Shown here in pieces: positions 43,003 through 60,939 of a stretch of 64,000 bases of DNA. This stretch comes from Polaromonas sp. (lineage in GTDB: Bacteria > Pseudomonadota > Gammaproteobacteria > Burkholderiales > Burkholderiaceae_C): NCBI RefSeq assembly GCF_030680935.1, contig NZ_JAUXUP010000022.1, positions 1-64,000 of the forward strand, given 5' to 3'. The stretch's first letter is position 1. Every line of letters starts with the position of its first letter. The position numbers and the translations under genes were made by a program. A model generated the notes under the pieces. The model had not been told where the DNA came from, ran no database searches, and saw nothing but the letters and a program-made list of their open reading frames with translations.

Positions 43003-43005
43003 GTG

Positions 43006-43317: not shown

Positions 43318-43322
43318 CGCCC

Positions 43323-43340: not shown

Positions 43341-43358
43341 CGTGCAGCCGAAATGTTT

Positions 43359-43416: not shown

Positions 43417-43442
43417 AAGTATTCGCCGATCCCCGTGCCTTC

Positions 43443-45917: not shown

Positions 45918-45967
45918 CGAACGAAAGTAACACGCGTATCACACGCATGCGCTTCCGTTGCAGCGCG

Positions 45968-46294
45968 TCAGGGTGTCAGACGCTGGCTGCGCTCGTACTT
46001 CAGGGCCACATGCAGTTGATCCAGCGCACCCACACAATCGAGCACCACGGCCTGGATCAGGCTGGCGGTCAGGGCGGCAGAACAGGCGGGCACATCTGGC
46101 GGGTGGTGCAGGTCGTCACCGACGGCGTGGCACAGCCTGGCTGACACCGCGTCAAACAGGACGTCCCAGTCTACCGGGTCAATGGCCAGGCGGTGATCGC
46201 CTCCTTCTACCGGCAAGTTTGGCGCGCTACTTACAAGCAGCAGGTTCGAAGCGGAATCCTGACCGTTGGGTTTGGCTTGCATGGCTGAAGACAT
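45968..46294 (-). CDS. Hypothetical protein
   Basis: 108 residues from ATG 46294 (46282 is an alternative). The first 40 residues look disordered; the rest (VDWDVLFDAVSARLCHAVGD, then SLIQAVVLDCVGALDQLHVA) looks helical. I recognise no family. It lies between the GGDEF-EAL gene and the first Crp-like gene on the same strand. The 188-base gap upstream contains an inverted repeat, AACACCT/AGGTGTT, at 46418-46444. Confidence 0.45.
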   Translation of the reverse strand: MSSAMQAKPNGQDSASNLLLVSSAPNLPVEGGDHRLAIDPVDWDVLFDAVSARLCHAVGDDLHHPPDVPACSAALTASLIQAVVLDCVGALDQLHVALKYERSQRLTP

Positions 46295-46482
46295 GGTAGC
46301 GTGTGGTGTGATGCCTCCGTTGTAAGCCGAGCGGTGATGATCGTCGGTGCGATAGCGCACATAGAAACCGTTTCTGAGGCCTCTGGCGTGGCCCGTGTTG
46401 CCCACTACGGGGTGCTAAACACCTGTTACAGACAAGGAGGTGTTGGTACGCTGCAACAACCTGCATGCTTTGGGGTGTTGCC

Positions 46483-47175
46483 TCAGCCCAGCAACTGCGC
46501 ATAGGTGTGCCGGTCGGCGGCATAACAGCCGCAGGCCGCTGCCTCCAGACCAGCCCGGTCCAGCACCTTGAGCTCGCCGCGGTGGTACTCGATCAGGCCT
46601 TCCTTTTGCATGGCACTGGCGGCAGCGGTGACACCCACGCGGCGCATGCCCAGCATATAGGCCAAAAACTCATGCGTCACATGAAAGCTGTCTGAATGGG
46701 CGCGGTCCTGGCTCATGAGTAGCCAACGCGCCAGGCGCTGCCCGATCAGGTGAAAACGCAGGCAACCGGCAGAACCGGCTGCCTGAGCCATCAGCACGTA
46801 TAAATAGTGTTTGATGCCGCGTTGCAGCGCCGGGCTTTGCGCCAGCTCGCGTTTGAAGGCAGCGGCACTCATGCGCCAGGCCGAGCCCTGGCCCTGCACC
46901 AGCGCGCGCCAAGGCGCATCCAGCACCCCCAGGGTCAACTGTGCGCCCAGCATGCCTTCGCGCCCGACCATGCCGACTTCCACACCGGGGCTGCCCTCGA
47001 CCAGGGTCACCAGCGAAATAAATCCATCAGTAGGGAAGTAAACATGGGCGGTGGGTTTGTCAGGTTCGCACAAGACGTCTGACAGTACCAATTGCACCGG
47101 CTTGCAGGCGGCCAGCAAGCGTTTGCGGTCGCTGCGGGGGAGGAGTTCTATCAGGTGGTTTTCGACTGAGGCCAT
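46483..47175 (-). CDS. Crp/Fnr-family regulator, first of two adjacent
   Basis: 230 residues. A cyclic-nucleotide-type beta-roll (about 15-125: VYFPTDGFISLVTLVEG, GVEVGMVGREGMLGAQL) is followed by a dimerisation helix and a C-terminal winged helix (THEFLAYMLGMRRVGVTAAA). The usual cAMP-contact Arg-Ser motif is not evident, so the ligand is unknown. The tail has ACGCYAADRHTYAQLLG, with a C-x-C-Y group shared with its neighbour. Confidence 0.85.
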   Translation of the reverse strand: MASVENHLIELLPRSDRKRLLAACKPVQLVLSDVLCEPDKPTAHVYFPTDGFISLVTLVEGSPGVEVGMVGREGMLGAQLTLGVLDAPWRALVQGQGSAWRMSAAAFKRELAQSPALQRGIKHYLYVLMAQAAGSAGCLRFHLIGQRLARWLLMSQDRAHSDSFHVTHEFLAYMLGMRRVGVTAAASAMQKEGLIEYHRGELKVLDRAGLEAAACGCYAADRHTYAQLLG

Positions 47176-47340
47176 GTTGGCTCTCCGGTGGGTAGCGCAC
47201 CCCTGTGCGGGGACAAGATCAAGCCGCGCTACGGTCGAAACCAGTTCAAATCGGTGCCCCAGTATGCGCTAACCCACGCTACCCCACTGTTTGCCCACGC
47301 ACATGGGCCCCATAAGCCGCCGCCTTGGCTGTCTGGCTTG

Positions 47341-48060
47341 TTAGATTGTTGTCAGCGCGGGCAGCAGCCTGTCGTACTCTTTTTTGACCACGCCGTAACA
47401 CTCGCAGGAGCGCTTTTCCAGGCCCGGGCGGTCCAGTACGGTGATGCGCCCGCGCGAGTAACGAATCAGGCCGGCGGCCTGCACCTGCAGCGCTGCTTCG
47501 GTCACGCCTTCACGGCGCACGCCCAGCATGTTGGAGATCAACTCCTGCGTCATCACCAGCTCGTTGCCGTCTAGCCGGTCCAGGCTCAAGAGCAGCCAGC
47601 GGCAGAGCTGCTGGTCCAGCGAATGGTGCCGGTTGCAGACGGCGGTTTGCGACATTTGCGTGATCAGCGCCTGGGTGTAACGCAGCAGCAGGTGTAACAC
47701 TGGCCCGCCCCGGTTGAACTCTTCCTTCAGGGCCTGGGCTGGCAGCCTGAAACCCTTGCCAGCGCTTTGCACCACGGCCCGGCTGGGGGTGGATTCACCG
47801 CCCATGAACAGCGAGATGCCGACCAAGCCCTCATTGCCCACCACGGCAATTTCGGCCGACGAGCCGTTTTCAAGCACATACAACATCGAAATAATCGCGG
47901 TCGTCGGAAAATACACATGGCTAAGCGTGGCGCCCGATTCATACAACACCTGGCCCAGGGGCATGTCGACCCATTCCAGCTGGGGCAACCAGCGCTGCCA
48001 CTCGGCATCTGGCAGGGCAGCCAGCAAAGTGTTTTTTTTCGGGTCGGGGGAAACAGCCAT
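47341..48060 (-). CDS. Crp/Fnr-family regulator, second of two adjacent
   Basis: 239 residues from ATG 48060; the longer frame to 48144 has no support. Sensor part: HVYFPTTAIISMLYVLENG, AEIAVVGNEGLVGISLFMGG. Winged helix: TQELISNMLGVRREGVTEAA. The tail SCECYGVVKKEYDRLLP repeats the C-x-C-Y ending of the neighbour. The two proteins are related but clearly diverged, suggesting old duplication. Together they stand just upstream of, and divergent from, the glycan locus. Confidence 0.87.
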   Translation of the reverse strand: MAVSPDPKKNTLLAALPDAEWQRWLPQLEWVDMPLGQVLYESGATLSHVYFPTTAIISMLYVLENGSSAEIAVVGNEGLVGISLFMGGESTPSRAVVQSAGKGFRLPAQALKEEFNRGGPVLHLLLRYTQALITQMSQTAVCNRHHSLDQQLCRWLLLSLDRLDGNELVMTQELISNMLGVRREGVTEAALQVQAAGLIRYSRGRITVLDRPGLEKRSCECYGVVKKEYDRLLPALTTI

Positions 48061-48488
48061 CAACAAAAGCTCCGAAGCAGTACTGGCTTCGAGCGGTGCC
48101 TCTGGCAGAGGTCTCGGGCCAGCCGGACATAGTAGGCTTTTCAAGCCGCTTTGTATGTACGCTAGCGCACAAACTGATCAGCGGTTCGCCAAAGTGTTCC
48201 GGGATGGCTGAATCGGCCTCGTCCGGCGCCGCGTTGATGCCTGCGAATGGCATGGGCTGGCCTTCAAATGGTTTGTGTGCAATTGACAGACGCCCTCGGC
48301 CTTCGGTCAGTGCGTCCCGCCGCAATATTTCGCTGCGTCATGCTTTGATTTAAGGGCCAGTCACTCCGCAGGGGGCTATGTCCTACATGTTGTAACGGGG
48401 TTTCCGTAGAACACCTAAGCGCCGGACTACCTATATTGCATAAGAACTTAAGTTTTAAAGATTACTCGACAGCAGCCCTGAATCACAA
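48061..48488. other. 428-bp region upstream of the glycan locus
   Basis: I see no convincing gene; frames on both strands have no recognisable domain. The right half turns AT-rich towards the first gene of the glycan locus, with TATATT at 48432-48437 and a palindromic AACTTAAGTT near 48445. These could be promoter or operator parts, but no good -35 box matches. The two Crp-like genes next door are natural candidates to act here. Confidence 0.45.
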
Positions 48489-48782
48489 ATGATTAATGCG
48501 TTCGACCAACTTAAAGAGTTTTCCGACATTGGCGCCCTGAAGCCGGCGCTGCATTCCCTGCTCTCGCGTTTTGGTTCGGTAGAACGTCTGGACATCCTGG
48601 TTTCCAGCCAGGCAGGCAAACGTCAGGCGCTGTGCTTTCTGCGCATGGGCTCGGCAGAACAGGAGCACCAGATCACGCGCGAGTTGGGGGTGGGTCGTTT
48701 CGCCGGCGACCTGGTCATGATTGTTGACTTGAAAACGCCAGGGACCGAGCGCGATAACGCGCCTACCCTGCAGGCAGCATGA
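48489..48782 (+). CDS. Unknown 97-residue protein heading the glycan locus
   Basis: 97 residues, MINAFDQLKEFSDIGALKPA and so on. Short helices (ALKPALHSLLSRFG) alternate with strands (VERLDILVSSQAG, RQALCFLRMG, GDLVMIVDLKT). It overlaps the start of wecB by four bases (ATGA), so it is translationally coupled. No family is recognised. It could be a small regulator of the epimerase or of polymer synthesis. Confidence 0.65.
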   Translation: MINAFDQLKEFSDIGALKPALHSLLSRFGSVERLDILVSSQAGKRQALCFLRMGSAEQEHQITRELGVGRFAGDLVMIVDLKTPGTERDNAPTLQAA

Positions 48783-49924
48783 GCGGCTTGCAAACACACG
48801 GCGTGGGCGTACAAGAGATCCTGCTGGTTTCGGGCACGCGTCCGGAAATCATCAAGCTGGCGCCGGTGTATCACGCGCTGCGAGGCGCCCCATGGGCGCG
48901 GGTGTCGTGGCTGCATACCGGCCAGCATGCAGACATGGCCGACCAGATCCTGGCCTGCTTTGACGTGGTGCCCGATATTTCGCTGTCTCGGGGCGGCGAC
49001 AGCCTGCTGGACTTCAGCACCGGCTGCCGGCAACAGCTTGACGCCGTGATGCAGCAGCGCGACTGGTCGCTGGTGATGGTGCAGGGCGACACCGAAAGCG
49101 CCTTTCAGGGCGCGCTGGCCGGGTTTTACCACCGGGTTCCAGTGGCTCACGTCGAAGCTGGTTTGCGTACCTACAACCTTGCCCGGCCTTTCCCCGAGGA
49201 AGGCCTGCGCCAGATGATCAGCCGGTTGGCACGTTTTCACTTTGCGCCCACGCAGCGCGCCCTGGTAGCGCTGCAAAACGAAGGCATCGCGGATGAGTTG
49301 ATCACGCTCACCGGCAACACGGTGATTGATGCCCAACAGTGGGCCTGCGTGCACCGCGGCGTGCAACGGCAGGTGGCGGGCCGGGGCCATTTGCTGGTGA
49401 CGGTACACCGGCGTGAAAACTGGGGCCACGATGTGCAGGAGATCTGCCATGCGATTGCCGACATCGCACGCCAGCAGCCTGACCTGAATGTGCTGTTTCC
49501 CGTGCACCTCAATCCGGCCATTCAGGGGCCTGTCAACGACATCCTTGGAGGGATTGCCAACGTCACGCTGACTTCTCCACTGGACTACACCGGCATGCAG
49601 CAGGCGCTCGCCGACGCGTGGCTGGTGCTGACCGATTCTGGAGGCCTGCAGGAAGAGGCGCCGACCTTTGGTGTGCCGGTACTGGTACTGCGCGACGAAA
49701 CGGAACGGCCCGAGGCCATCGAGGCCGGCTGTGCCCTGCTGATAGGCGTGTCACGTGCTGCGATTGTGGGTGAAGTGGCGCGCTTGTCGGGCGATAAACA
49801 GGCCTACCTCCGCATGTCGCAGGCCGTGAATCCTTTCGGCGACGGCACCGCTTCGAGCAAGATTGTGGCCATGTTGGCCAGCGCGCTGGCCAACGAACCT
49901 GCGACCGTCCCCGAATTCGCGTGA
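48779..49924 (+). CDS. wecB: UDP-N-acetylglucosamine 2-epimerase (WecB/NfrC-like)
   Basis: 381 residues. This enzyme converts UDP-GlcNAc to UDP-ManNAc. Conserved blocks: LLVSGTRPEIIKLAPVYHAL, VMVQGDTESAFQGAL, VPVAHVEAGLRTYN, FPEEGLRQMISRLA, VTVHRRENWG, TDSGGLQEEAPTFG and ETERPEA. All active-site motifs look intact. In E. coli the same activity (wecB, alias nfrC) is required for the N4 receptor glycan made by NfrA and NfrB. Here the gene is located with the other components. Confidence 0.93.
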   Translation: MSGLQTHGVGVQEILLVSGTRPEIIKLAPVYHALRGAPWARVSWLHTGQHADMADQILACFDVVPDISLSRGGDSLLDFSTGCRQQLDAVMQQRDWSLVMVQGDTESAFQGALAGFYHRVPVAHVEAGLRTYNLARPFPEEGLRQMISRLARFHFAPTQRALVALQNEGIADELITLTGNTVIDAQQWACVHRGVQRQVAGRGHLLVTVHRRENWGHDVQEICHAIADIARQQPDLNVLFPVHLNPAIQGPVNDILGGIANVTLTSPLDYTGMQQALADAWLVLTDSGGLQEEAPTFGVPVLVLRDETERPEAIEAGCALLIGVSRAAIVGEVARLSGDKQAYLRMSQAVNPFGDGTASSKIVAMLASALANEPATVPEFA

Positions 49925-50108
49925 GTTGCGTGTGGACCGGCCTTTTCAGTTTTTACAAAAATCGTCCTTCCACGGACGACTTCACTGCTGACGATCGCGC
50001 GTGATGGCTGCCGATTTGCCTGCTTCGGCGCCTTCGCCGCAAGCACCTGACCGGGGCGATTCCCGGCATTTCCCAGCACTGCCCAGCCTTGTCGAGAAAA
50101 AAAGTTTT

Positions 50109-52367
50109 ATGAAGACCCTGTCCAAACTCTCCGACCACTTGCCGCAACTTGTATGCCGCTCCAGCCTGATCGTTGCGGTTTGTCTGCCTTTGCTGGCCCA
50201 GGGGCAACCTGTTTCTACTGGGGCGCCCGGCGCAGCGGCCAGCGCGTCTGAAGTTTTCAGGCGTCTCACGGCCGACCGTTGGGTCTCCCGCGAGATCACG
50301 TTTGCGGAACTAGGGTTCACAGGGCCTCTGGTGCTGGGCGCGCCGGAGACAGTGCGCGAGCTGTACCTGCCGGTCCCGGCCAATGTGCCCTTGAGCGGGG
50401 CCGAGATCAAGCTCAATGCCAGCTACTTGCGCGCGGAGGGTGGTCGAACCAGCCTGGTGCTGTCGCTGGACAGCTACCCGGTGTCATCGCGGCTGATGGC
50501 GCAGGACAAGGGCGACGCCAGCATTCTTCTGGGCGTGGACGGATCCCCCAGAACCAGCGGATTTGTCAGGATGGGACTGAGCTGGAACACGGCCATGGGC
50601 GCGGAGCGGCTCTGCACCGACGGCCGCGTTGTCGGCAATGTGCTGCGCATCGAGCCGGACTCGCGTTTTACCTACCGCTATGACGCCAGCTCTGTGCGTG
50701 ACCTGGCGACCGCATGGGGGTCCTTGCCCTCTTCGCCCGTGATCCTGGTTTCTTCGAACAATCTCAGCGCGGGGTCTTATGACTCAGCCTGGCGCATGGG
50801 CGTGGCACTGGAGCGGGCCGGCAAACGCGCCCGGATACAGGCGCTGGCCAGCGTGGGCGAGACGATTGATCTGGACGGCCTGGCGGTGCCGGCGGCGCTG
50901 CGCGGCATCCCGGCTTTTGCGGCGCTGGCCCAGGGCGGAAAATACAAAATCAAGGATGCCGCCGAGATCGGGGCCCTGCTTTCTCTGGGCGCAGCCAGCC
51001 CGCTGCGGGCCGACATCATCATTGCCGACAAGGCGCTGACTGCAGGCATGAATACGTCCCTGGACGCCCTCCAGAACCAGCTGCAGGCGGCAGCGCCGGC
51101 GGCCGTCGCTGATTTTGCCGCGTGGCGCGCACGCGCGCTGGAGCCGGCAGCCCTGCCTGCCGCACCAGGGGAAATCCGCCTGTCCCCGGCCTTCGGCAAT
51201 CCGGCCATTGTTGTCGCCAGCGATGCGGGCGCGCAGGCGGCCGGCTTGTTCAGTACCTATTGGAGCCGCCTGGCGGTTGGCTCATCGATGGTGGTGCAAA
51301 CCGCTGCCGATCCGACGGGCGACGCGTCGGCGGTATCGCTGAAATACCTGGGCGGCAGACCGGGCAGTTTTGATGTTCTGTCGCACGCCGACTGGAACGC
51401 CAGTTTCGATATAGGCGCAGTCGCGGCCGATGGACGCCTGCCCTCCAGCCTGATACTCGATGTGTCTGCAGCGCCAAGTGCGGCGCGCACGCCGCCGGTG
51501 GTCTCCGTGTTCATGAACGACATCCTTCTGGGCGCCCGGCAGATGGACGCCAACGGGAAGCTTGAGCGCGTCACGGCACGCATCCCTGCCTACGCCCTGG
51601 CCGCGCGCAATACCCTGCGCGTCAGCTTTGTGCGCCAGCTGGCCAGCGACCGCTGCCGAGAATCGCCGGAACCCTACCCCGTGTCGGTGTTGCCCAGCAG
51701 CCGCATGCTGCTGGAAAAGACCGATATCTCCAATGACTTCACTGGCATGGTGGCACGGTATGCCACGGGTGCGCATGTGATGGTGCCCGCCGCCTATCTT
51801 GCAGATGCAGCCGCTTCGCTGCCGCGGCTGATCCGCATGGCCGTCACAGCCGGCGTTTCGCCCATGAAGGCCAGTTTCACGGCGGTCACGGGCGACACCA
51901 TCCCGCCGCCCGGCGGCCCCTTTCTGGCGATGGAATTGCCCTTCAGGGATGCAGAGTCGAAGGTCACGCTCGAAGCCGGACGGCTGGTGATGAATGGCCA
52001 CAGCAAAGAGGCCGTCCTCGATATCAAGGGGGTGAACAACGTGGCGATTGTCGAGGTGGTCAAGGTCAAGGGCAATATAGGGTTGGTTTACCGCACGGTG
52101 GGCGAGCAGGCCCCCGCCCTGGACAAAGCCATTGTGCTGGCTGGCGGTGACGTTGCGGTGATAGGTGCCGGCGGCCTGCTGCTCGAGATCAACTCGGCCG
52201 ACCCGGGCGGCCGCAAGGCGGTGGGTGCCGAAGCGGGCATCTGGCTTCTGGCCCGGGGCTATTGGTGGATGCTGCCGGTACTCGGTGTCGTCTTCATGAT
52301 CGGGTTGCTGGTGTTCGCTAGCCGGGTGCGCCGGCGCAAGGCCGCGGAACAGGCTGCCAGGGTGTAG
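50109..52367 (+). CDS. BcsB-like periplasmic polysaccharide synthase partner
   Basis: 752 residues from ATG 50109. A signal peptide (SSLIVAVCLPLLAQG) leads to a large periplasmic region with BcsB-like modules: a jelly-roll carbohydrate-binding pair (VRELYLPVPANVPLSGAEIK, then PPVVSVFMNDILLGARQMDA) and flavodoxin-like parts between. The single C-terminal membrane helix is WMLPVLGVVFMIGLLVFASR, followed by a basic tail. In cellulose synthesis BcsB guides the polymer through the periplasm beside BcsA. Here it sits directly before an NfrB-like synthase, so a similar job is likely. Confidence 0.8.
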   Translation: MKTLSKLSDHLPQLVCRSSLIVAVCLPLLAQGQPVSTGAPGAAASASEVFRRLTADRWVSREITFAELGFTGPLVLGAPETVRELYLPVPANVPLSGAEIKLNASYLRAEGGRTSLVLSLDSYPVSSRLMAQDKGDASILLGVDGSPRTSGFVRMGLSWNTAMGAERLCTDGRVVGNVLRIEPDSRFTYRYDASSVRDLATAWGSLPSSPVILVSSNNLSAGSYDSAWRMGVALERAGKRARIQALASVGETIDLDGLAVPAALRGIPAFAALAQGGKYKIKDAAEIGALLSLGAASPLRADIIIADKALTAGMNTSLDALQNQLQAAAPAAVADFAAWRARALEPAALPAAPGEIRLSPAFGNPAIVVASDAGAQAAGLFSTYWSRLAVGSSMVVQTAADPTGDASAVSLKYLGGRPGSFDVLSHADWNASFDIGAVAADGRLPSSLILDVSAAPSAARTPPVVSVFMNDILLGARQMDANGKLERVTARIPAYALAARNTLRVSFVRQLASDRCRESPEPYPVSVLPSSRMLLEKTDISNDFTGMVARYATGAHVMVPAAYLADAAASLPRLIRMAVTAGVSPMKASFTAVTGDTIPPPGGPFLAMELPFRDAESKVTLEAGRLVMNGHSKEAVLDIKGVNNVAIVEVVKVKGNIGLVYRTVGEQAPALDKAIVLAGGDVAVIGAGGLLLEINSADPGGRKAVGAEAGIWLLARGYWWMLPVLGVVFMIGLLVFASRVRRRKAAEQAARV

Positions 52368-52390
52368 GCTGACCTGCAAGGAACGCCAAC

Positions 52391-54526
52391 ATGGTTTGGA
52401 CCCTCTTTACTGCCAACTACTACGCGGCCCTGGAAATGCTTGCCGCCGGGGTGGCCGTGCTGATTTTCATATCTTCGGTTGACGACCTGTTTATTGATCT
52501 CTGGTATTGGATCAGGCGCGGTTTTCGCTCCCTCACGGTCAAAAGACAGTATTCCGCGATGACGGCGGCCCACCTGCGCGAAAAAAGCGAGCAACCGCTG
52601 GCCATCATGGTCCCCGCGTGGCTCGAATATGACGTGATCGCATCGATGATCGAAAACATGGTGGAGGTGCTGGAGTATCAGCACTACGTTGTTTTTGTTG
52701 GCACCTATATCAACGATGCGAAAACCATCGAGGAAGTCGAGCGCATGCAAAAGCGCTACAAGCAATTGCACCGTGTGGAAGTCCCGCATGCCGGGCCCAC
52801 CTGCAAGGCAGACTGCCTGAACTGGGTGGTCGATGCGATTTTTGCCTATGAAAAAGAGCACGGTATGGCGTTCGCCGGGGTGGTGCTGCACGACAGCGAA
52901 GACGTGCTTCACCCGCTGGAACTGAAGTTTTTCAACTACCTTCTGCCCCGCAAGGACATGATCCAGTTGCCGGTCGCCTCACTGGAACGCGAGTGGTACG
53001 AACTGGTGGCAGGCACCTACATGGACGAGTTTGCCGAGAGCCATGCCAAGGACATGGTGGTCCGCGAGAGTGTTGCCGGCGTGGTGCCGTCTGCGGGGGT
53101 TGGCACCTGCTTTTCAAGGCGGGCGCTCCAGGCGCTGGTTGGGTCGACGCGCAACAAACCCTTCAATACCGACAGCCTCACCGAAGATTACGACGTCGGA
53201 AACCGCCTTGCGCAATTGGGCATGCAGGCCATTTTTGGCGTGTTCCCGGTCCGCTATCGTGTGACACGAACCGCGTGGTTTGGCAGACAGGCCACGCGCG
53301 AGGTGATGGTCCGCATGCCGCTCGCGGTGCGCGAGTTTTTTCCGGATACGTTTGAGCAGGCCTACCGCCAGAAGGCCCGGTGGGTTCTGGGAATCGGCCT
53401 GCAAAGTTGGGAGCAGATTGCCTGGAAAGGCTCGATCGCGGCGCGGTATCTTTTGCTGCGGGACCGCAAAAGCACCGTCACGGCGCTGGTCAATGTGCTG
53501 GGCTACGTGCTGGTGGTGCAATTCATGGTGTTCCACATCGGCCTCTGGACGGGGTGGTGGAATGTGTTTTATCCCTCGCTGTTTGCCGAAAACAGCTGGT
53601 GGCGTGTGCTGATCTATCTGAACGCCGTGTCGCTCGTCATCCGGTGCGGGCACCGGGTCTACTTCACCACCATTCTTTACGGCTGGGAGCACGGCCTGAT
53701 GTCGCTGCCGCGCATGGTGGTCAGCAACTTCGTCAACTTCATGGCCGTGGCGCGCGCCTGGCGCCTGTACTTGTCTTACCTGTTCCGGGGCAAGGCGCTG
53801 GCATGGGACAAGACCATGCATGACTTTCCGACCGGCGGGCAGTTGCCGCGTCGCCGTCAGCGACTGGGAGAACTCCTGCAATCCTGGCAGGCTGTGGATG
53901 AAACCATCCTGTCCAGGGCGCTCAAGGAGCAGGCCACGACCGAGATGCCTTTGGGGCAAATACTGATTTCCCATGGCTGGCTTGATGAGGATACGCTGGC
54001 CGAAGCCATTGCCTACCAGGCCGGCCTGACACGCACGCGGCTGACCGAAGAGATGGTCATGAGCCATGCGGGCGCAGTGCCCAAGGATTTCGGCACGCGC
54101 TTTCGCGCCGTGTATGTCGGCCGCGACGCCCACGAAAAACCCATTCTGGCAGTTGCAACGCCATTGCAGGAGGCAGCCCTGACTGAGCTTGCTGAAATCT
54201 TCGGCGTGGAGCCGCAGCAGCGTGTGGTCCGCGAAGGCGAACTGGCGATCGCCTTGCGCCTGCTGCGTGGCGTCGAGGGCGACTTTTACAGGCTGGAGGG
54301 CGGCGTTGCGGGCGTGCCTTTGCTGGGCGATATGCTGGTGGAGCAGGGTTTGCTCAAGCGCAACCTCTTTGAAGGCGCCATGCAAACCTATCGCCCTGAA
54401 CGCCATGGCCGCGTCGGCGATTACCTGGTGGACCAGGGAATTATTGTGCGCGAGGTGATCGAGCGCGTCGTCCAGCAGCAGCGACTGATGCACGCAGAAC
54501 TTTCACGCGTGAAACTACCGGAATAA
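52391..54526 (+). CDS. nfrB: NfrB-like processive glycosyltransferase with MshEN repeats
   Basis: 711 residues. N-terminal membrane helix 10-30; GT2-type catalytic domain about 70-340 with VVLHDSEDVLHPLEL (acidic metal site), DSLTEDYDVGNRL (TED) and RQKARWVLG (QxxRW), the signature of processive synthases; then membrane helices about 370-470. The cytoplasmic C-terminus starts RRQRLGELLQSWQAVDE near 490 and contains MPLGQILISHGWLDEDTLAE, matching the MshEN c-di-GMP-binding motif; a second, weaker pair begins LLGDMLVEQGLLKRNLF near 642. This suggests that c-di-GMP switches the synthase on. Confidence 0.9.
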   Translation: MVWTLFTANYYAALEMLAAGVAVLIFISSVDDLFIDLWYWIRRGFRSLTVKRQYSAMTAAHLREKSEQPLAIMVPAWLEYDVIASMIENMVEVLEYQHYVVFVGTYINDAKTIEEVERMQKRYKQLHRVEVPHAGPTCKADCLNWVVDAIFAYEKEHGMAFAGVVLHDSEDVLHPLELKFFNYLLPRKDMIQLPVASLEREWYELVAGTYMDEFAESHAKDMVVRESVAGVVPSAGVGTCFSRRALQALVGSTRNKPFNTDSLTEDYDVGNRLAQLGMQAIFGVFPVRYRVTRTAWFGRQATREVMVRMPLAVREFFPDTFEQAYRQKARWVLGIGLQSWEQIAWKGSIAARYLLLRDRKSTVTALVNVLGYVLVVQFMVFHIGLWTGWWNVFYPSLFAENSWWRVLIYLNAVSLVIRCGHRVYFTTILYGWEHGLMSLPRMVVSNFVNFMAVARAWRLYLSYLFRGKALAWDKTMHDFPTGGQLPRRRQRLGELLQSWQAVDETILSRALKEQATTEMPLGQILISHGWLDEDTLAEAIAYQAGLTRTRLTEEMVMSHAGAVPKDFGTRFRAVYVGRDAHEKPILAVATPLQEAALTELAEIFGVEPQQRVVREGELAIALRLLRGVEGDFYRLEGGVAGVPLLGDMLVEQGLLKRNLFEGAMQTYRPERHGRVGDYLVDQGIIVREVIERVVQQQRLMHAELSRVKLPE

Positions 54527-54527
54527 C

Positions 54528-56540
54528 ATGAAGACCACCTTGACGAAAACAGGCACTGCGGTGCTGGGCCTGCTTGCCCTGGCCTCGCTTGCCAGCGCCG
54601 CTCACGCGCAGCAAACGTTGCCCCTGCCCCTGACCGGGCCGGCCTGGGTGCTGGCCGACGACGCGTACAAGGCCTTCGCGCGTGGCGACTATGCAGAGGC
54701 GCTGGAGAAGGCCACCGAGGCGCTGCGCCAGCGTCCCGATGTGGTGCGCTTGCGGGATCTGATCAGCCAGGCCAAAGCGGCACAGAAGCGGGCGGCCGTG
54801 CAGGCAAGCCGGCCTGTGCCTGCAATCCGTCCGGCCCGGCGTCCTGCCAGCGAGCCGCAGTCGCTGACTGCGTCTGCACCCGCACCGCTACCGGCACCGG
54901 CCCCAGACCCTGCCTATGTGGCTGCCGACGCCGGCTACAAGGCTTATGGCCGCGCTGACTACACGGCAGCCGTCACAGCAGCACAGGATGCCGTGCGCCT
55001 AGCGCCCCAGAACCGGGACTACCGGCTGCTGCTGGTCAACGCGCTGCTGGCGGCCGGGCGGCTGGCGGACGCGGACGAGGCGCTCACCGGAGCGATCACC
55101 GCCACGGGTGATGATGGCCGGCTGCTGGCGCAGCAGACCGCCCTGCGCCAACGGATGGTAGAAGCCCAGAGCTGGGCATTAGGCGCTGCGGCCTACAAGG
55201 ACTTCGAGCGAGGCGATTTTTCTGGCGCCGCCGACAAGGCGCGGCAGGCGCTGCAATTGACACCCGACAACCGTGACTACCAGGCCTTGCTGGTGAGATC
55301 CCTCTACCGTGCGGGGCAGTATGCCGAAGCCGAACAACGGGCGGGGGTTGCCATTGCCGGCGCCCCGGCTGCGCCCCTGTATGTGCAGCGGGGCCTGATT
55401 CGCCAGCGCATGGGACAGGAAGCTCTGGCGCGCCAGGACTTCGAGGCCGCCTTGCAGCGGGGCGGCTTGCCGATTGCCACCGAGATCGGCCTGCTGCTTG
55501 ATTTGGGCCGCAAGGCTGAAGCGAAGCAGCGTCTGGATGAAAGCCGGGCGGATGGATCGCTGGCCGGTCTTGCCGAGGCAGACCGCGGTTATCTGGCCGT
55601 CCGTGTGGGCGAGGACGAGCAGGCGCTGGCCGCGTTCAACCGCGCTGACGCCTCCGGCAAGCTCGCCAATACCGCCTGGCGCGACGCCGCGTTTGCTGCG
55701 GTGCGCACAGGCCAGGACGCGCAAGCCATCGGCTATTTCAAGCGCAGCATTGACGATGCGGGCGCGCAAAAACTGCCCCTGACGCCGCAGCAGCTGTTTG
55801 AAACCCGCCGCGCAGTGGCGGAGGTTTCCCGCGAGGCCGGGGTGATCGCTTCATTGAGCTATCGCGGTGCGGTGTCGGGTCAGGGCCTGACTCCGGGTAC
55901 GGCCACCGATAGCCTGCAAGCCGGCACCGAGGCTTACTGGCGGCCCTGGGGCTTCAGCAACGGACGGTATACCGAGCTGTTTGCGCGTGGGTTTGAAACG
56001 CTTTACAGCAAGGGCGGAGGGGCGACGGGCAGCAAGACACTGCAGACGGCGCTGGGTATCCGCCACAAGCCCCTGACCGACGTCAATCTTGTTGCCTCCA
56101 TCAGCCGGGTGTTTGCGCCCTCGAGCGGGCGTGACGACTGGCTGGCCCAACTGGGCTATTCGGGTGGCCGCGGCGGTGACTTGCGCGTGGATGCGCCTTC
56201 GTGGTGGACCAGCCGGGTCTCCGCTGAACTGGGACACTATCTTTCTTCGGGCCAAAGCTACGGTTTGGCGCAAGCCGACCTCGGCAAAAGCTTCCGGGTG
56301 GGCCAGTCAGGCAGGTGGGTTGCGTTCCCCCACGTCGCGTTGGCCGCCGACTACAACTCTGGCGCGATTGCCCGCAGTTCAGTGGGTGTGGGCCCCGGCA
56401 TCAGCGCGCGTTACTGGTTTCGTGAGGATGTGTATAACGCGCCGCGGTCCTATGTGGATGTTTCGCTGCAATACCGCTGGCGCGTGGGCGGTGCGGCGCG
56501 TGCCGGCGGCGTGTTCCTCATCACCACCCTGTCTTACTGA
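54528..56540 (+). CDS. nfrA: NfrA-like TPR and outer-membrane barrel protein
   Basis: 670 residues, starting two bases after nfrB. Signal peptide 1-27 ends AAHAQQ. The periplasmic part (about 35-430) has TPR-like repeats: YKAFARGDYAEALEKATEAL, YKAYGRADYTAAVTAAQDAV and YKDFERGDFSGAADKARQAL. The C-terminal 220 residues are beta-rich and end in LITTLSY with a terminal aromatic, as for an outer-membrane barrel (NfrA C-terminal domain). In E. coli NfrA exports the glycan and is the phage N4 receptor. The Pro/Ala-rich stretch near 95-125 is a linker. Confidence 0.85.
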   Translation: MKTTLTKTGTAVLGLLALASLASAAHAQQTLPLPLTGPAWVLADDAYKAFARGDYAEALEKATEALRQRPDVVRLRDLISQAKAAQKRAAVQASRPVPAIRPARRPASEPQSLTASAPAPLPAPAPDPAYVAADAGYKAYGRADYTAAVTAAQDAVRLAPQNRDYRLLLVNALLAAGRLADADEALTGAITATGDDGRLLAQQTALRQRMVEAQSWALGAAAYKDFERGDFSGAADKARQALQLTPDNRDYQALLVRSLYRAGQYAEAEQRAGVAIAGAPAAPLYVQRGLIRQRMGQEALARQDFEAALQRGGLPIATEIGLLLDLGRKAEAKQRLDESRADGSLAGLAEADRGYLAVRVGEDEQALAAFNRADASGKLANTAWRDAAFAAVRTGQDAQAIGYFKRSIDDAGAQKLPLTPQQLFETRRAVAEVSREAGVIASLSYRGAVSGQGLTPGTATDSLQAGTEAYWRPWGFSNGRYTELFARGFETLYSKGGGATGSKTLQTALGIRHKPLTDVNLVASISRVFAPSSGRDDWLAQLGYSGGRGGDLRVDAPSWWTSRVSAELGHYLSSGQSYGLAQADLGKSFRVGQSGRWVAFPHVALAADYNSGAIARSSVGVGPGISARYWFREDVYNAPRSYVDVSLQYRWRVGGAARAGGVFLITTLSY

Positions 56541-57448
56541 TGCCGATGCAGTGCATCGTCTCCAGGAGCACTTGCAAGTCCGGGCTGATCCGTTGGCCTG
56601 GGCTGGCTTGCGTGCTGGCGTTGGCGCTGATACTCGGCGCCTGCGCGCGCCCACCGCCGGTGATTCCTGCGCTGGCCGGCGTCGTCTGGCAGCCGGACAA
56701 CACGACGCTGGATCCACGCGGCAACTGGCACCGCATGGGCGCCACCGAGTTGCTGGTGCAATGGACGGCTGTTGACGGCATGGCATTTGTCGACAACCCG
56801 GTGTTGCCCGTGGTGCCCAAGCTGCCGGCCTGGCCGCGGATTGCAGGTGAGGCCTGGGCGCAGGATGTGATCCTGGGTCTGGCCGGCCGCTTTGACGAAA
56901 AGGCCGCACGCGCCGACATTGGCAAACTCGCCGAGGCTTCGGTGGTGCTGGCCGGACTGCCAACACCGCTGAAGGTCACGGGCTGGTATTTTCCTGTGGA
57001 GATTGATCCGACATGGGTGGAGGCCCCCAGCCTCGCGCCGCTGTTGGCCAGCTTGCCCCGGCCGCTGTGGATCAGCGTCTACGACAGCGCCAATGTCGGT
57101 CCCGACGCGCTGGTGCAGGGGCTGGCGAAGTGGTTGCCGCCTGATGTTGGGGTGTTTTTTCAGGACGGCGTCGGTGTACATGCACGCGAAGCGCGAATTG
57201 CAAAACATTACGCCGACGCACTGTCGGCCAAGCTCGGGCGGGAGCGGGTGCGCATCATTGCCGAGGCTTTTCGCCCGCAAACGGGTGGTGGGTTTCGCAG
57301 CGCGACGATTGGCGAACTCGCGCCCCAACTCGCACTCTACGCTGGCTACCGCATCTATTTGTTTGACGGTCCACACTACGTGCCGGACTCGCTGACTGCC
57401 GAGATCGCCGCTGCCCAGGTGCCTGCGCAGGGGGCTGCTCGACCATAG
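56540..57448 (+). CDS. YbcH/DUF3142-like lipoprotein of the glycan locus
   Basis: 302 residues, start overlapping the nfrA stop by one base. A signal region ends LALALILGACARPP with a probable lipobox Cys. The rest resembles a TIM-barrel glycosidase-like fold (PLWISVYDSANVGPDALVQG, VGVFFQDGVGVHAREARIA, RVRIIAEAFRPQTGGGF, and YRIYLFDGPHY). E. coli ybcH stands beside nfrA and its protein falls in DUF3142 as I recall; the assignment here is by context and length. It may trim or modify the polymer. Confidence 0.65.
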   Translation: MPMQCIVSRSTCKSGLIRWPGLACVLALALILGACARPPPVIPALAGVVWQPDNTTLDPRGNWHRMGATELLVQWTAVDGMAFVDNPVLPVVPKLPAWPRIAGEAWAQDVILGLAGRFDEKAARADIGKLAEASVVLAGLPTPLKVTGWYFPVEIDPTWVEAPSLAPLLASLPRPLWISVYDSANVGPDALVQGLAKWLPPDVGVFFQDGVGVHAREARIAKHYADALSAKLGRERVRIIAEAFRPQTGGGFRSATIGELAPQLALYAGYRIYLFDGPHYVPDSLTAEIAAAQVPAQGAARP

Positions 57449-57487
57449 TTTGCGGGGGCGGCAACCCGTACCCCGAGCTTTCAGCTT

Positions 57488-57928
57488 CTAGTACCGGACG
57501 CTACAGACTTCCAGCGCGTTGAGCCCATGGTCGGTGATGACGTAGCCGACCTCGTCATCCCCGTCCAGAAAACCGTGCCTCGCCAGCGAAGCGACGGTTT
57601 TTATCCCGTGTGCCCGGGTTTTGTGGGGCTGGGGTAACTTGCGTTCAGACGGCGCCAGGCCAAGAATGCGAAAACCGTAGCGCGCGTCTTCCAGGCATTC
57701 ATACTGTTTGTAGGTCAGAATTTTGATGGGCAGTGTGCCGCTGACGTGGCCGCTCCATTGGAACTCCGGCGGCACGTAGCTGACCCGGTAGGTGCTGTCC
57801 TCCTCGGCGCTGCTGTCCAAAACAGTTGCGGGGGCCGCCATGGACCTGGCCTTGCGCCGGGTGAGCAGGTAAGCACCGAACCCCGCCAGTACCGTCAACA
57901 GCACTATGAGAGCGATCACCAACTCCAC
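57488..57928 (-). CDS. Hypothetical single-span membrane protein with winged-helix-like tail
   Basis: 146 residues. An N-terminal membrane helix (LVIALIVLLTVLAGFGAYLL) is followed by basic residues RRKAR, then a soluble domain. The C-terminal 60 residues (KTVASLARHGFLDGDDEVGY, VITDHGLNALEVC) look like a small winged helix. No family is recognised. It is convergent with the glycan locus, with 39 bases between. Confidence 0.6.
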   Translation of the reverse strand: MELVIALIVLLTVLAGFGAYLLTRRKARSMAAPATVLDSSAEEDSTYRVSYVPPEFQWSGHVSGTLPIKILTYKQYECLEDARYGFRILGLAPSERKLPQPHKTRAHGIKTVASLARHGFLDGDDEVGYVITDHGLNALEVCSVRY

Positions 57929-58004
57929 GCCATCCCCTTTTTAGCCATACCCTGATTATCGGCAGAAATTCGGGGTATGACCCCGGGCCGGAAATGCCCG
58001 ATTT

Positions 58005-58316
58005 TTATCCCTGCCCGCTCTGGAGCTCAAACTGGGCGTCCCCCATGTAACGATCGGCGCCCAAGGCCGCCTGCATGGCAGCCAGCTCGGCTGCCTCCCA
58101 CTGGTCGGCCAGCACTTGTTCCGCCGGGCTGAGATCCCACGGGCGCGCCCGCTCGCCGTGGATGTGCAGCAGCCGCTGGTAAGCGTCGTGCACCGGCATC
58201 ACCAGGCTGGCGTCGCCCAGGCAGGCCTCCAGCGCGCTGCGAAAGCGCTGCACCGCAGCGGCGCGCTCGGCGTCGGAGACGTCCTCGCTGTGAAAAATTC
58301 TGACGGTGTAGGGCAT
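58005..58316 (-). CDS. Hypothetical small soluble protein
   Basis: 103 residues, MPYTVRIFHSEDVSDAERAA at the start, then mostly helical (VQRFRSALEACLGDASLVMP, then ADQWEAAELAAMQAALGADR). No signal, no membrane segment, and no family that I recognise. It is the only gene between the membrane protein at 57488 and the divergent bactofilin gene. Confidence 0.6.
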   Translation of the reverse strand: MPYTVRIFHSEDVSDAERAAAVQRFRSALEACLGDASLVMPVHDAYQRLLHIHGERARPWDLSPAEQVLADQWEAAELAAMQAALGADRYMGDAQFELQSGQG

Positions 58317-58490
58317 GCGCCGAGTTTAGAAGAACACACGACGACTCTAAAAAAAGGCAGTACCCATGCAGATCGCCACGGTTCCTTTGCGGCTGCCGCA
58401 CACCTGGTCATTTCGTTACTCATCTTGCATTCGCGGTGGAGACTTTTGAAAACTCTCTCCGTACCATCGGTTCTTTTTAAGGAAATCCAG

Positions 58491-59033
58491 ATGGCACTGC
58501 AATCCCCGTTTTTCGGCAAGCGTGACAACGAGCCCGCCAATTTGCGGCATGGCAGCCCGAATCCCAATCCCTATGCCAATGGTGCTGCGCCAGCCAGTGC
58601 GGCGGCCGTGCAAGCCGCTGCGGCGCCAGCCGCAACTGCGTCGGCCAGCAGCGGCGCGCGCGAGGGCGGCAGCAAGTTGACGGTTGGCCCCAACATCAAA
58701 CTCAAAGGAGTGGAGATCACCGATTGCGACACGCTGGTGGTGGAGGGGCTGGTGGAGGCCACCATGGATTCGCGTGTCATGCAAATTTCCGAGCGCGGCG
58801 CTTTCAAGGGCTCGGCGGAAATTGACATTGCAGAGATTCATGGCGAGTTTGATGGCAACCTCACGGTGCGTCAGAAACTGGTGATTTATGCGACCGGCAA
58901 AGTCACCGGAAAAATCCGCTACGGCAAACTGGTGATTGAAGAAGGCGGCCAGCTTGCCGGTGAAATACTGTTTGGTGCAGTTGGTAGTTCCAAGGCCGCC
59001 CTGGTTGGCAAACCGGGCCTGCAGGTCGCCTGA
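58491..59033 (+). CDS. Bactofilin (DUF583 polymer-forming protein)
   Basis: 180 residues with an Ala/Pro-rich N-terminal tail (about 1-65) and a bactofilin beta-helix (about 70-165): LTVGPNIKLKGVEITDCDTL, VVEGLVEATMDSRVMQIS, EIHGEFDGNLTVRQKLVI and ATGKVTGKIRYGKLVIEEGG, with the short repeated turns of the fold. Bactofilins polymerise without nucleotides and scaffold envelope enzymes. The ATG is preceded by AAGGAAATC. The neighbouring glycan locus may be a client, which is speculation. Confidence 0.92.
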   Translation: MALQSPFFGKRDNEPANLRHGSPNPNPYANGAAPASAAAVQAAAAPAATASASSGAREGGSKLTVGPNIKLKGVEITDCDTLVVEGLVEATMDSRVMQISERGAFKGSAEIDIAEIHGEFDGNLTVRQKLVIYATGKVTGKIRYGKLVIEEGGQLAGEILFGAVGSSKAALVGKPGLQVA

Positions 59034-59115: not shown

Positions 59116-60939
59116 ATGCCCGTCGTCATCTCACCCCTTCAGGCCCAGATAGTTCACTGGCAGGTTCAGTCCGGCGCGCTGGTGGCGCCCGGTGACGTGC
59201 TGCTGGTGCTGGAGGCGATGAAGATGGAGCATGAGGTCCGCGCCCCAAGCGCAGGCCGCGTGGCGGAGGTTTTTTTTGTTGCGGGTGAGCAGGTCGAAGC
59301 TGGCGCGCAACTGGCGGTGATTGAGACGGGCGTTGAGAGGGCGGCGTCGCCGCTCGCGCCACCGTCAGGCCGCGCTTCCGGTGTGCTGCCAGGCCTGCGC
59401 CAGGACTTGCAGCGTGTGCAGCAGAGACACGCAAAAACCGCCGACGCGAGCCGGGCGGCTGCGATACAAAAGCGCCATGCCCTGGGCTTTCGCAGCGCGC
59501 GTGAAAACATCGCCGACCTGTGTGATGAAGGCTCCTTCATCGAATATGGTGCTCTGGCAGTTGCGGCGCAGCGCAGCCGCCGCAGTGAAGAGGACCTGAT
59601 AACCAACACACCGGCCGATGGCATGGTGACCGGCATAGCCAGCGTCAACAGCGCCTTGTTTGGTGCGCAGGCCAGCCGCGCTGTGGTGATGGCCTATGAC
59701 GCCACCGTGCTGGCCGGCACGCAAGGCATGCGCAACCACCAGAAGACAGACCGGTTGCTGGGCATTGCCTTGCAGCAGAAACTGCCGGTGCTGCTGTTTG
59801 CAGAAGGTGGCGGCGGACGGCCCGGCGACACAGACATGCCCATAGTGGCGGGCCTGCACGTGGGCACCTTCGCCAGCTTTGCCCGTCTCAATGGCCAGGT
59901 GCCGGTGATTGGCATCGCAGCAGGCCGCTGTTTTGCCGGCAACGCGGCCTTGCTGGGGTGTTGCGACCTGATCATTGCAACAACCGGCAGCAACATCGGC
60001 ATGGGTGGTCCGGCCATGGTCGAGGGTGGCGGTCTCGGGGTGTTCAAGCCAGAGCAGATCGGCCCCAGCACCAGCCAGCACAGCAACGGCGTGATTGATG
60101 TGCTGGTGCAGGATGAGGCCGAAGCGGTTGCCGTGGCACGCCGCTACCTGGCTTTTTTCCAGGGTGTGCTAGTCCAATGGCTGGCCCCGGACGGCAACAC
60201 CTTGCGCGATGTGGTGCCTGAAAACCGCCTGCGTGTGTATGACACGCTGGCTGTGATGGGCGGCATCGCCGACAGCGGCAGCGTGCTGGCGCTGCGTACC
60301 GGCTTTGGAAAAGGCATTCACACTGCGCTGGCCCGCATCGAGGGTCGTGCCGTCGGCATCATGGCGAACAACCCGCAGCACCTGGGAGGCGCGATTGACG
60401 CCGATGCGGCAGACAAGGCCGCACGGTTCATGCAGCTGTGCAATGCCCACGGCCTGCCCATGGTCAGCCTGGTGGACACACCCGGCTTCATGGTCGGCCC
60501 GGAGATCGAGACCCAGGCGCAGGTACGCCATGTGAGCCGCATGTTCATCGCCGCAGCGCACTTGCGTGTGCCTTTTTTCAGCGTGGTGCTGCGCAAGGGT
60601 TATGGCCTGGGCGCCATGGCCATGGCGGCCGGCGGCTTTCATGCGCCGATCTTTACGGTGGCCTGGCCGACCGGAGAGTTTGGGGCCATGGGGCTGGAAG
60701 GCGCGGTCAGGCTGGGTTATCGCAAGGAGCTGGAGGCGCAGCCGGAAGGGCCACAACGCGAGGCCCTTTACGACACCCTGGTCGCCCAGCAATACGACAA
60801 GGGCAGCGCCCTCAACATGGCGACGACGCTGGAAATTGACGCTGTGATTGACCCGGCCGACACACGTGCCTGGCTGGTGCGTGGCCTGCAGTCTGCCCGG
60901 ACAAGCCCCGGCGGCGGGCACGCGATCGACGCCTGGTAG
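59116..60939 (+). CDS. Fused biotinyl-carboxyltransferase subunit of an acyl-CoA carboxylase
   Basis: 607 residues. Residues 1-75 are a biotinyl domain with LEAMKMEHEVRAPSAGRV (biotin-accepting Lys36). After a linker, about 90-600 is a carboxyltransferase of the acyl-CoA carboxylase beta/PccB type: NTPADGMVTGIASVN, GIAAGRCFAGNAAL, IGMGGPAMVEGGGLGVFK, FSVVLRKGYGLGAMAM and WPTGEFGAMGLEGAV. It moves CO2 from biotin to an acyl-CoA. Biotinyl domains are normally joined to the biotin carboxylase, and no carboxylase gene is in the window, so the partner must be elsewhere. Confidence 0.88.
   Translation: MPVVISPLQAQIVHWQVQSGALVAPGDVLLVLEAMKMEHEVRAPSAGRVAEVFFVAGEQVEAGAQLAVIETGVERAASPLAPPSGRASGVLPGLRQDLQRVQQRHAKTADASRAAAIQKRHALGFRSARENIADLCDEGSFIEYGALAVAAQRSRRSEEDLITNTPADGMVTGIASVNSALFGAQASRAVVMAYDATVLAGTQGMRNHQKTDRLLGIALQQKLPVLLFAEGGGGRPGDTDMPIVAGLHVGTFASFARLNGQVPVIGIAAGRCFAGNAALLGCCDLIIATTGSNIGMGGPAMVEGGGLGVFKPEQIGPSTSQHSNGVIDVLVQDEAEAVAVARRYLAFFQGVLVQWLAPDGNTLRDVVPENRLRVYDTLAVMGGIADSGSVLALRTGFGKGIHTALARIEGRAVGIMANNPQHLGGAIDADAADKAARFMQLCNAHGLPMVSLVDTPGFMVGPEIETQAQVRHVSRMFIAAAHLRVPFFSVVLRKGYGLGAMAMAAGGFHAPIFTVAWPTGEFGAMGLEGAVRLGYRKELEAQPEGPQREALYDTLVAQQYDKGSALNMATTLEIDAVIDPADTRAWLVRGLQSARTSPGGGHAIDAW

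Follow-up and report, generated by a model that had tools for sequence, protein, structure and literature searches.

The closest described system is the NfrBA-YbcH/N4 glycan receptor (NGR) system of E. coli, for which in vivo roles of NfrB, MshEN and WecB have been described (PMC8669469, PMC8669472) and a dependence on WecB was shown or proposed in the same accounts. Genes for WecB adjoining nfrB were reported by Junkermeier & Hengge 2021, and Sellner et al. 2021 described nfrA-nfrB-wecB together with a BcsB homologue in Achromobacter (PMC8669472). The Polaromonas locus analyzed here has the MshEN-bearing synthase type, the exporter family and a YbcH relative in common with NGR. It differs by an in-operon wecB, an added BcsB-fold partner and an NfrB of the PRK15489 clade. 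The Achromobacter xylosoxidans cluster also has wecB and a BcsB homologue; it differs in its O-acetyltransferase homologues, and the section of PMC8669472 that describes it names no P97-like gene or regulatory slot. The exopolysaccharide (EPS) loci of Variovorax, as far as they are described in the relevant parts of PMC3283707, are unrelated to our operon. The six-gene machine is a BcsB-equipped NfrB-type EPS set of a kind already known. What is new is its apparently chimeric make-up, the conserved, weakly RRM-like P97 and the occurrence of three EPS operons behind P97. We estimate at roughly 70% the probability that the locus is an NGR-type EPS operon which includes a BcsB-like partner and occupies, as a chimera, an exchangeable EPS slot.

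The window is the whole stretch of 64,000 nucleotides of Polaromonas sp. contig NZ_JAUXUP010000022.1 (positions 1 to 64,000). All six plus-strand open reading frames of the initial annotation were present, head to tail and at the coordinates it gave. Its spacings were also recovered: P97 and wecB overlap by 4 bases, nfrA-like and ybcH-like by 1, and gaps of 23 and 1 bases separate the BcsB-like gene from nfrB-like and nfrB-like from nfrA-like. The 184 bases given between wecB and the BcsB-like gene hold if the latter starts at ATG 50109; its longest open reading frame begins at GTG 50001, which as start would shorten the gap to 76. No Rfam RNA, riboswitches included, reached its gathering score in 43000-58500.

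Features of the P97-EPS locus and its neighbours in the window, with the matches on which the assignments are based.
Feature	Position	Strand	Matches and remarks
PAS-GGDEF-EAL protein, 824 aa	43443..45917	-	Pfam EAL 243 bits, GGDEF 160 bits
Crp/Fnr-type regulator 1	46483..47175	-	HTH_Crp_2 60 bits; position kept in several relatives
Crp/Fnr-type regulator 2	47341..48060	-	region about 39% identical to regulator 1; position kept in several relatives
P97, small RRM-like protein, 97 aa; first gene of the slot	48489..48782	+	
wecB, UDP-GlcNAc 2-epimerase (predicted UDP-ManNAc supply)	48779..49924	+	TIGR00236 equivalog 396 bits (cut-off 210)
BcsB-like periplasmic protein	50109..52367	+	PF03170 family matches and fold
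NfrB-type GT2 synthase, 711 aa, C-terminal MshEN-type motifs	52391..54526	+	NF012033/PRK15489 equivalog 1048 bits (cut-off 537; residues 1-701); NF053729 c-di-GMP motif 74 bits (cut-off 38)
NfrA-like TPR/outer-membrane barrel exporter	54528..56540	+	NfrA_C (PF13283) 149 bits (cut-off 25); TPR repeats (TPR_19 40.6 bits, cut-off 25)
YbcH-like lipoprotein, DUF4434-related	56540..57448	+	Both below cut-off: PF14488 (DUF4434) 26 bits (30); NF007404 (YbcH equivalog) 39.5 bits (344)
Bactofilin	58491..59033	+	PF04519 64 bits; borders the slot on the right in several relatives lacking an EPS operon

The synthase is 37% identical to E. coli NfrB (733-column alignment). It carries the GT2 motifs DSED (DxD-type) from residue 168, TED from 264 and QKARW (QxxRW) from 327, and MshEN-type motifs starting at residues 491, 520 and 674. 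The description of this protein as an NfrB-like synthase with MshEN motifs was borne out by two profiles above cut-off (NF012033 and NF053729); the NfrB equivalog NF008411 scored 616 bits, below its cut-off of 1170, and PF05157 (MshEN) was borderline, with 19.2 bits in the protein scan and 23.2 bits in the genome search (cut-off 23.1). A synthase devoid of MshEN and NfrB similarity in profile searches, named beforehand as the outcome that would speak against the assignment, was not found. The motifs suggest that the synthase of the window is under c-di-GMP control.

The BcsB-like protein has a signal peptide, recognized by eye, and a C-terminal membrane helix. Alone, it matched PF03170 with 17.6-17.7 bits, below the gathering score of 21; 33 of 35 members of its family matched at E<=0.01, the best at 4.5e-12. 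In a fold search with the AlphaFold2 model (pLDDT 79), every one of the 22 best PDB matches was to a chain of BcsB or of a cellulose synthase complex, with E from 4e-22 to 1e-13 and TM, by target length, of 0.37-0.60; the BcsB fold extends across nearly the full length. A sequence-only profile search of the PDB found no solved BcsB and gave one chance match, at E 0.86. Family-profile matches and fold search together uphold the BcsB-fold partner proposed initially. The locus has a BcsB fold and a GT2 synthase partner in common with cellulose synthase BcsA-BcsB. However, identity to BcsB was 11-13% in structural alignments, no BcsA, PilZ, BcsC or BcsZ match was obtained among the six proteins, the c-di-GMP motif is MshEN, and the neighbour is an NfrB-type synthase, not a partner BcsA in a cellulose operon. 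We also considered a stray cellulose gene. This was unsupported: no PF03170 match at E<=0.001 was found elsewhere in the genome, a search that also misses the present protein and so excludes an ordinary BcsB only, being insensitive for divergent members. Grouping of the protein with a complete cellulose operon elsewhere in the genome, which would have counted against it as a partner, was not found.

The YbcH-like protein is 26% identical to E. coli YbcH over 219 columns and shows a lipobox, LGAC, by eye. Residues E154, D156, Q208-D209-G210 and E242 are invariant in 23 homologues, E. coli YbcH included. These acidic residues and the DUF4434 match make a TIM-barrel glycoside hydrolase possible; comparison with solved structures gave no useful match. 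Separately, a phage link may be envisaged for the operon.

A gene-order search found the same order again in Burkholderiales, Pseudomonas and Microvirga, and the arrangement is therefore not due to chance. Among usable named NfrB loci (the best 80 of 292, and hence biased to close relatives of the NfrB of the window), a BcsB-like gene lay directly upstream of nfrB in 71/75 and WecB upstream in 69/75; downstream, NfrA was found in 72/72 and YbcH in 70/72. The common order was wecB-BcsBL-nfrB-nfrA-ybcH. On this point the initial interpretation needs amending: the combination is widespread in beta- and gammaproteobacteria and has been published for Achromobacter (PMC8669472).

Phylogenies suggested a mixed origin of the operon. 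The BcsB-bearing NfrBs lie in one group, in which Collimonas and Ramlibacter have lost the partner (three label changes), and the NfrB of the window groups with the nfr clade. The WecB of the window nests, with support 99, among the WecBs of GT2-YaiO operons of the same genus. It lies outside a second group, also with support 99, into which all other BcsB-type nfr WecBs sampled fall, that of L149 excepted. The operon thus looks chimeric from these trees, WecB going with the GT2-YaiO operon of the genus and NfrB with the nfr clade. The group of the window WecB also includes those of four E. coli-type nfr loci from other families (L110, L111, L113, L114); therefore its deeper origin may still be an nfr locus. 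One Polaromonas MAG carries both operons in tandem, as P97-wecB-GT2-YaiO-P97 relic-BcsBL-nfr. In the 184-base gap between wecB and the BcsB-like gene, no GT2-YaiO scar or lost-operon remnant was found. The gene combination is real, but it seems not to be a single ancestral unit: wecB, and by its position P97, belong with a different synthase operon found in the genus.

The codon-based gene caller misses some starts and genes, and the slot counts were therefore redone by tblastn with fixed P97 coordinates. This gave 55 P97 places: 42 (including the window, G661 and G782), to which G491 added two and other genera 11; a partial 37-residue P97 match on contig 162 of G801 was left out. One of three EPS operons (nfr, GT2-YaiO or pel) followed P97 at 25/55 places, in several genera, and none of them at 30/55, seven of which have less than 3 kb of DNA. 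Eight of the relatives whose slot is empty have a bactofilin match that starts 105-242 bases behind P97. Three of the slots have divergent wecB genes. Outside the slot, GT2-YaiO was present in two of 16 genomes without a P97 match; pel lies away from it in G808, and in G801 on another contig. Upstream, an orthologue of the divergent PAS-GGDEF-EAL gene was found at 37/45 P97 places having at least 4.5 kb of upstream DNA; in the window its RLGGDEF, EALVR and DDFG motifs are intact. We read the presence of three kinds of operon behind P97 as a sign of a slot where EPS operons are exchanged while the regulatory module stays resident. The places without any of them, and the GT2-YaiO and pel operons found outside the slot, weigh against this reading.

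Another history would be an ordinary inherited Achromobacter-type nfr operon, in which a local relative has taken the place of wecB and P97 happens to lie alongside without any connection to it. The usual wecB-BcsBL-nfrB-nfrA-ybcH order of the genes fits this, as does the frequent occurrence of P97 without any tested EPS operon. Moreover, a P97-profile search of 95 NfrB loci found it in L023 only, absent from the other 94, and outside the family P97 adjoins a transaldolase gene in two loci. Against it stand the P97/wecB overlap in the window, the three different EPS operons that P97 precedes in several genera, and the genus sample of 61 genomes, where all 3 that bear NfrB have nfr behind a P97 (a disrupted second copy of P97 in G821; a divergent NfrB, 49%, in G787). 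We regard this history as rather unlikely, and favor the chimera in an exchangeable slot. A role of P97 as an nfr-specific gene was rejected because P97 precedes other operons and also occurs alone. In the class sample it was found in 2/274 genomes, both from the family of the window, and in the order sample in 13/399 at E<=0.01, five genomes (window included) being below 1e-10.

The first gene had been listed as an unknown 97-aa gene. It is indeed there; it proved to be conserved, weakly RRM-like and a marker of the slot of several EPS operons. Its median dN/dS was 0.23 over the 123 pairs that were not saturated, out of 153 pairs from 18 sequences; one of these sequences, L227, has a stop codon. 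Judged from sequence comparison, P97 is a conserved gene under purifying selection with a weak resemblance to RRMs. RRM domains predominated among the Foldseek matches listed, of which the best had E 7e-3 (TM about 0.44) and none reached E<=0.001, and the best match of its profile in the PDB was an RRM, 1iqt (E 0.012). No Pfam family matched at E<=0.1, hence no curated RRM match; NF058537 ('RNA-binding regulator') gave 17.7 bits for a cut-off of 100, a match that, at a guess, may be of the RbpB kind. The RNP1 of RRMs usually bears aromatic residues. The RNP1-like strand of P97, QALCFLR, aligned without them, and a helix takes the place of RRM strand 1 in the model. Both features, together with the presence among the structural matches of UHM domains, which bind proteins, would fit an RRM-shaped protein-protein adaptor that does not bind RNA, for example connecting the GGDEF-EAL protein to the synthase. 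We give such a role slightly less than even odds. RbpB of Bacteroides, an RNA-binding regulator of the RRM-1 type that acts on polysaccharide utilisation, resembles P97 in its link to polysaccharide genes and in the RRM type, to which P97 is weakly similar; P97 differs by lacking the aromatic RNP1 residues and strand 1, and by sitting with EPS synthesis and not use (PMC11697453).

The WecB of the operon is the only PF02350 match in the whole genome, which supports the own sugar supply proposed for the locus. We infer that the polymer contains ManNAc. Alternatively, WecB could feed another glycan and NfrB could use UDP-GlcNAc or a mixture, like other GT2 synthases. No in vitro demonstration of the NfrB substrate was found in the text portions of PMC8669469 and PMC8669472 considered here. 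In addition, the pel slot of G824 has an adjoining wecB, and neither an NfrB nor a GT2-YaiO gene was detected in that slot; wecB can therefore accompany operons other than those of NfrB and GT2. This alternative is quite improbable in our estimation: the single epimerase gene lies inside the nfr operon, dissimilar WecB lineages are attached to GT2-YaiO and nfr operons, and E. coli genetics (PMC8669469) also speaks against it.

Altogether, under the chimeric NGR-type reading, WecB would convert UDP-GlcNAc to UDP-ManNAc, its family function. By homology with E. coli NfrB, c-di-GMP acting on the C-terminal MshEN motifs would activate the synthase, which would then polymerise a glycan containing ManNAc across the inner membrane. 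Held in the membrane by a single C-terminal helix, the BcsB-fold protein would take and guide the chain in the periplasm as its fold and fixed neighbourhood suggest, in the manner of BcsB with cellulose; NfrA would export the glycan, and YbcH would probably trim or edit it. The P97-wecB head would go with the resident wecB-GT2-YaiO operon of the genus, and the BcsBL-nfrB-nfrA-ybcH core with a different lineage. P97 and the PAS-GGDEF-EAL protein would form a resident regulatory module that stays constant while the operon behind it changes.

Given its BcsB-fold partner, this branch of synthases may extrude its polymer in much the way that cellulose is extruded. The in-operon wecB, apparently re-acquired, lends comparative support to the proposed use of UDP-ManNAc by NfrB-type synthases. 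More tentatively, and with considerable doubt, P97 and the PAS-GGDEF-EAL protein may be a portable control module over nfr, wecB-GT2-YaiO or pel, with P97 an RRM-type post-transcriptional EPS regulator in Proteobacteria and the site a coat exchange slot. If so, surface polymers, which in E. coli are phage receptors, could be exchanged without rebuilding their regulation.

Profile searches of the window confirmed WecB, a GT2 synthase of the NfrB type that carries c-di-GMP motifs, and an NfrA-type exporter, and the six plus-strand genes proposed by the initial annotation were recovered with the same overlaps and gaps. Relationships to YbcH/DUF4434 and to BcsB were also matched by profiles, but with scores below the cut-offs. 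With 1048 bits the synthase clears the cut-off of the PRK15489 model (537), but its 616 bits fall short of that of the NfrB model (1170), so that, judged from its sequence, it is NfrB-type but belongs to a sister clade. Motif inspection located all of the DxD-type, TED and QxxRW catalytic sites, as well as MshEN-type motifs starting at residues 491, 520 and 674. Aligned with E. coli NfrB over 733 columns, it shows 37% identity. Three NfrB relatives (fetched loci L107, L108 and L109) are only 565-573 aa long, their match stopping past the first MshEN motif pair, around window residue 545; BcsB-like and WecB are kept there.

The window BcsB-like protein alone scored 17.6 bits against PF03170, under the Pfam cut-off of 21, and 33 of 35 aligned relatives matched this profile at E<=0.01 (best 4.5e-12). 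An AlphaFold2 model from a 35-row alignment (pLDDT 79, pTM 0.75) was compared with the PDB, and each of the top 22 matches was a chain of BcsB or of a cellulose-synthase complex, with E-values from 4e-22 to 1e-13. The protein has a C-terminal helix (718-751) and, judged by eye, a putative signal peptide. No BcsB-profile match was found elsewhere in the window's genome, in a search that also misses the window protein itself. In YbcH, residues E154, D156, Q208, D209, G210 and E242 are invariant in an alignment of 23 homologues, including that of E. coli. Together with the sub-threshold match to DUF4434, a family of the TIM-barrel glycosidase clan, this suggests that the YbcH-like protein is a predicted glycosidase of that fold, with a role presumably comparable to BcsZ or PgaB.

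The frequency of the gene order was assayed in named NfrB loci (the best 80 of 292), 75 of which have at least 4.5 kb of upstream DNA. The BcsB-like gene lies immediately 5' of nfrB in 71 of these 75, and WecB is found upstream in 69. The exceptions for BcsB are L026 from Ramlibacter, the two Collimonas loci L054 and L073, and L034, where a match lies farther away within a split ORF. Among the 72 of the best 80 with 6 kb downstream, NfrA follows in all and YbcH in 70. In the order-wide sample, NfrB was detected at E<=1e-60 in 16 of 399 genomes; in the 15 other than the window's, BcsB-like is present in six (L104-L109), absent from seven, and the remaining two loci (L103, L116) are cut off at a contig end. 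In the NfrB tree, BcsB-bearing synthases fall within a single 36-row group with three label changes, which also includes four BcsB-less rows (Collimonas, Ramlibacter) and one undetermined row; its base has a support of 100 but is a meeting point of long branches. From these counts and the tree, the nfr core with BcsB-like is therefore a widespread variant. The initial reading of this core is reasonable, and largely in print already: PMC8669472 reports a BcsB homologue with nfrA-nfrB-wecB in Achromobacter xylosoxidans, and PMC8669469 the nfrB-wecB linkage in general.

Coordinates of features in the window and in fetched loci (L); G denotes sampled genomes and C their contigs
Source	Position	Strand	Feature
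Window	43443-45917	-	PAS-GGDEF-EAL gene
Window	48489-57448	+	six-gene operon: P97, wecB, BcsB-like, NfrB-type synthase, NfrA-like, YbcH-like
Window	48489-48782	+	gene of P97 (97 aa)
Window	59116-60939		fused biotin/lipoyl-binding and carboxyltransferase protein, at slot border
L023	1550-6922		EPS-like operon: GT2, bactofilin-like, 317-aa exported protein, YaiO barrel, membrane protein (also in L152, L157, L176)
L209	10154-11326		divergent wecB between GGDEF-EAL gene and P97
L217	8346-9452		divergent wecB between GGDEF-EAL gene and P97
L222	3559-4668		divergent wecB between GGDEF-EAL gene and P97
L230 (G787:C96)	405-2873		divergent NfrB

P97 homologues are under purifying selection (median dN/dS 0.23 over the 123 unsaturated of 153 pairs from 18 sequences, one with a stop codon), and 12 positions are invariant in a ten-sequence alignment. 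The predicted model (pLDDT 77.5) reads helix-helix-strand-strand-helix-strand-strand. Most of the Foldseek matches listed for it were RRM domains, the best reaching E 7e-3 and none 0.001, and the best profile match in the PDB was an hnRNP D RRM (E 0.012). These weak fold and profile matches suggest that P97 may be RRM-like. The first strand is missing from the model and RNP1 has no aromatics, so that the protein may or may not bind RNA.

Of the genomes sampled, P97 is present in 39 of 61 for the genus, 15 of 399 for the family and 2 of 274 for the class, these two coming from the same family; among 95 NfrB loci its profile matched L023 alone. At 25 of the 55 places examined (one partial match left out), a same-strand exopolysaccharide (EPS) operon stands behind P97: GT2-YaiO in 17, nfr in four (one behind a disrupted P97 copy of G821) and pel in four. 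The identity of pel was checked by Pfam in L135 and L156 (PelB barrel, PelD, DUF3492 for PelF, PelG). None of the three was seen at the other 30 places, seven of which have less than 3 kb of DNA. Upstream DNA of 4.5 kb or more is available at 45 places, and at 37 of these P97 is accompanied by a divergently oriented PAS-GGDEF-EAL orthologue. Among the eight without a hit, G821b is the second P97 copy of one locus, G787 and G822 show a GGDEF-EAL gene in gene calls, and G661, G729, G424, G582 and G634 are without it. Within the genus, NfrB occurs in 3 of 61 genomes, each time behind P97, and the GT2-YaiO operon lies behind P97 in 14 of 16 genomes, the other two having no P97 match. PelG, present in 4 of 43 genomes, is behind P97 in two, elsewhere in one (G808) and on a separate contig in one (G801). 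That P97 adjoins orthologous GGDEF-EAL genes and, across several genera, EPS operons of three different kinds would seem hard to put down to chance, with the caveat that these places are kin by descent.

One of the three genus NfrB genomes, G787, carries a synthase only 49% identical to the window's, starting less than ~180 bases past P97. This leaves no space for BcsB-like or wecB, and the nfr genes apparently represent a separate arrival in the same slot. A homologue of the protein at the window's slot border immediately adjoins P97 in L133 and L175. Three loci with P97 relatives come from outside the family: in L134 the neighbourhood includes an AbiEi-type antitoxin gene, and in L136 and L137 a transaldolase gene adjoins P97. 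No EPS operon was recognised at these three loci.

PF02350 matches a single protein of the window's genome, the window WecB. In tblastn comparisons, its identity is 81-87% to the WecBs of nine same-genus loci, where they lie between P97 and a GT2-YaiO operon (GT2-bactofilin-like-317aa-YaiO-membrane protein), and 76-78% to those of three further same-genus GT2-YaiO loci. In the remaining two genus GT2-YaiO slots (G795, G808), a divergent WecB (~45%) lies between P97 and the GGDEF-EAL gene instead. Identity to the WecBs of 73 other BcsB-like-bearing loci is 39-46%, a range that leaves out L149 (77%) and L023, which has both operons. In a 44-sequence WecB tree, the window's is nested among GT2-operon WecBs (support 99), and 19 sampled WecBs of BcsB-type nfr loci fall into the opposite group (support 99); the window's wider group also includes the WecBs of L149 and of L110, L111, L113 and L114, four nfr loci of the E. 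coli type. In the synthase tree, the window synthase groups with those of L149, L023, L103 and other nfr loci.

A divergent wecB (~40%) was also met in the pel slot of G824, flanked by P97 and the GGDEF-EAL gene. Such a gene thus occupies three slots, two of GT2-YaiO and one of pel (loci L209, L217 and L222; 40-45% against the window's), and a 63-residue wecB match lies near the first P97 of G830. The WecBs that accompany the EPS-like operon of L023, L152, L157 and L176 are not all alike. A literature search that combined YaiO, exopolysaccharide and glycosyltransferase listed one paper, whose subject is the folding of outer-membrane proteins.

L023, from a Polaromonas MAG and on a contig that agrees in length and coordinates with G821:C99, is a tandem: P97-wecB-GT2-...-YaiO-...-disrupted P97-BcsB-like-nfrB-nfrA-ybcH. 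The window arrangement could derive from such a tandem via loss of the middle part; since no scar of this loss was seen in the window, the step is one that we infer. Open-licence literature searched by title and abstract start (NfrB/NfrA/WecB/BcsB, NfrB since 2022, YaiO, RRM with GGDEF and exopolysaccharide, Polaromonas c-di-GMP) yielded no account of the slot. The EPS slot led by an RRM-like gene is new content, as is the apparent chimeric origin of the window operon.
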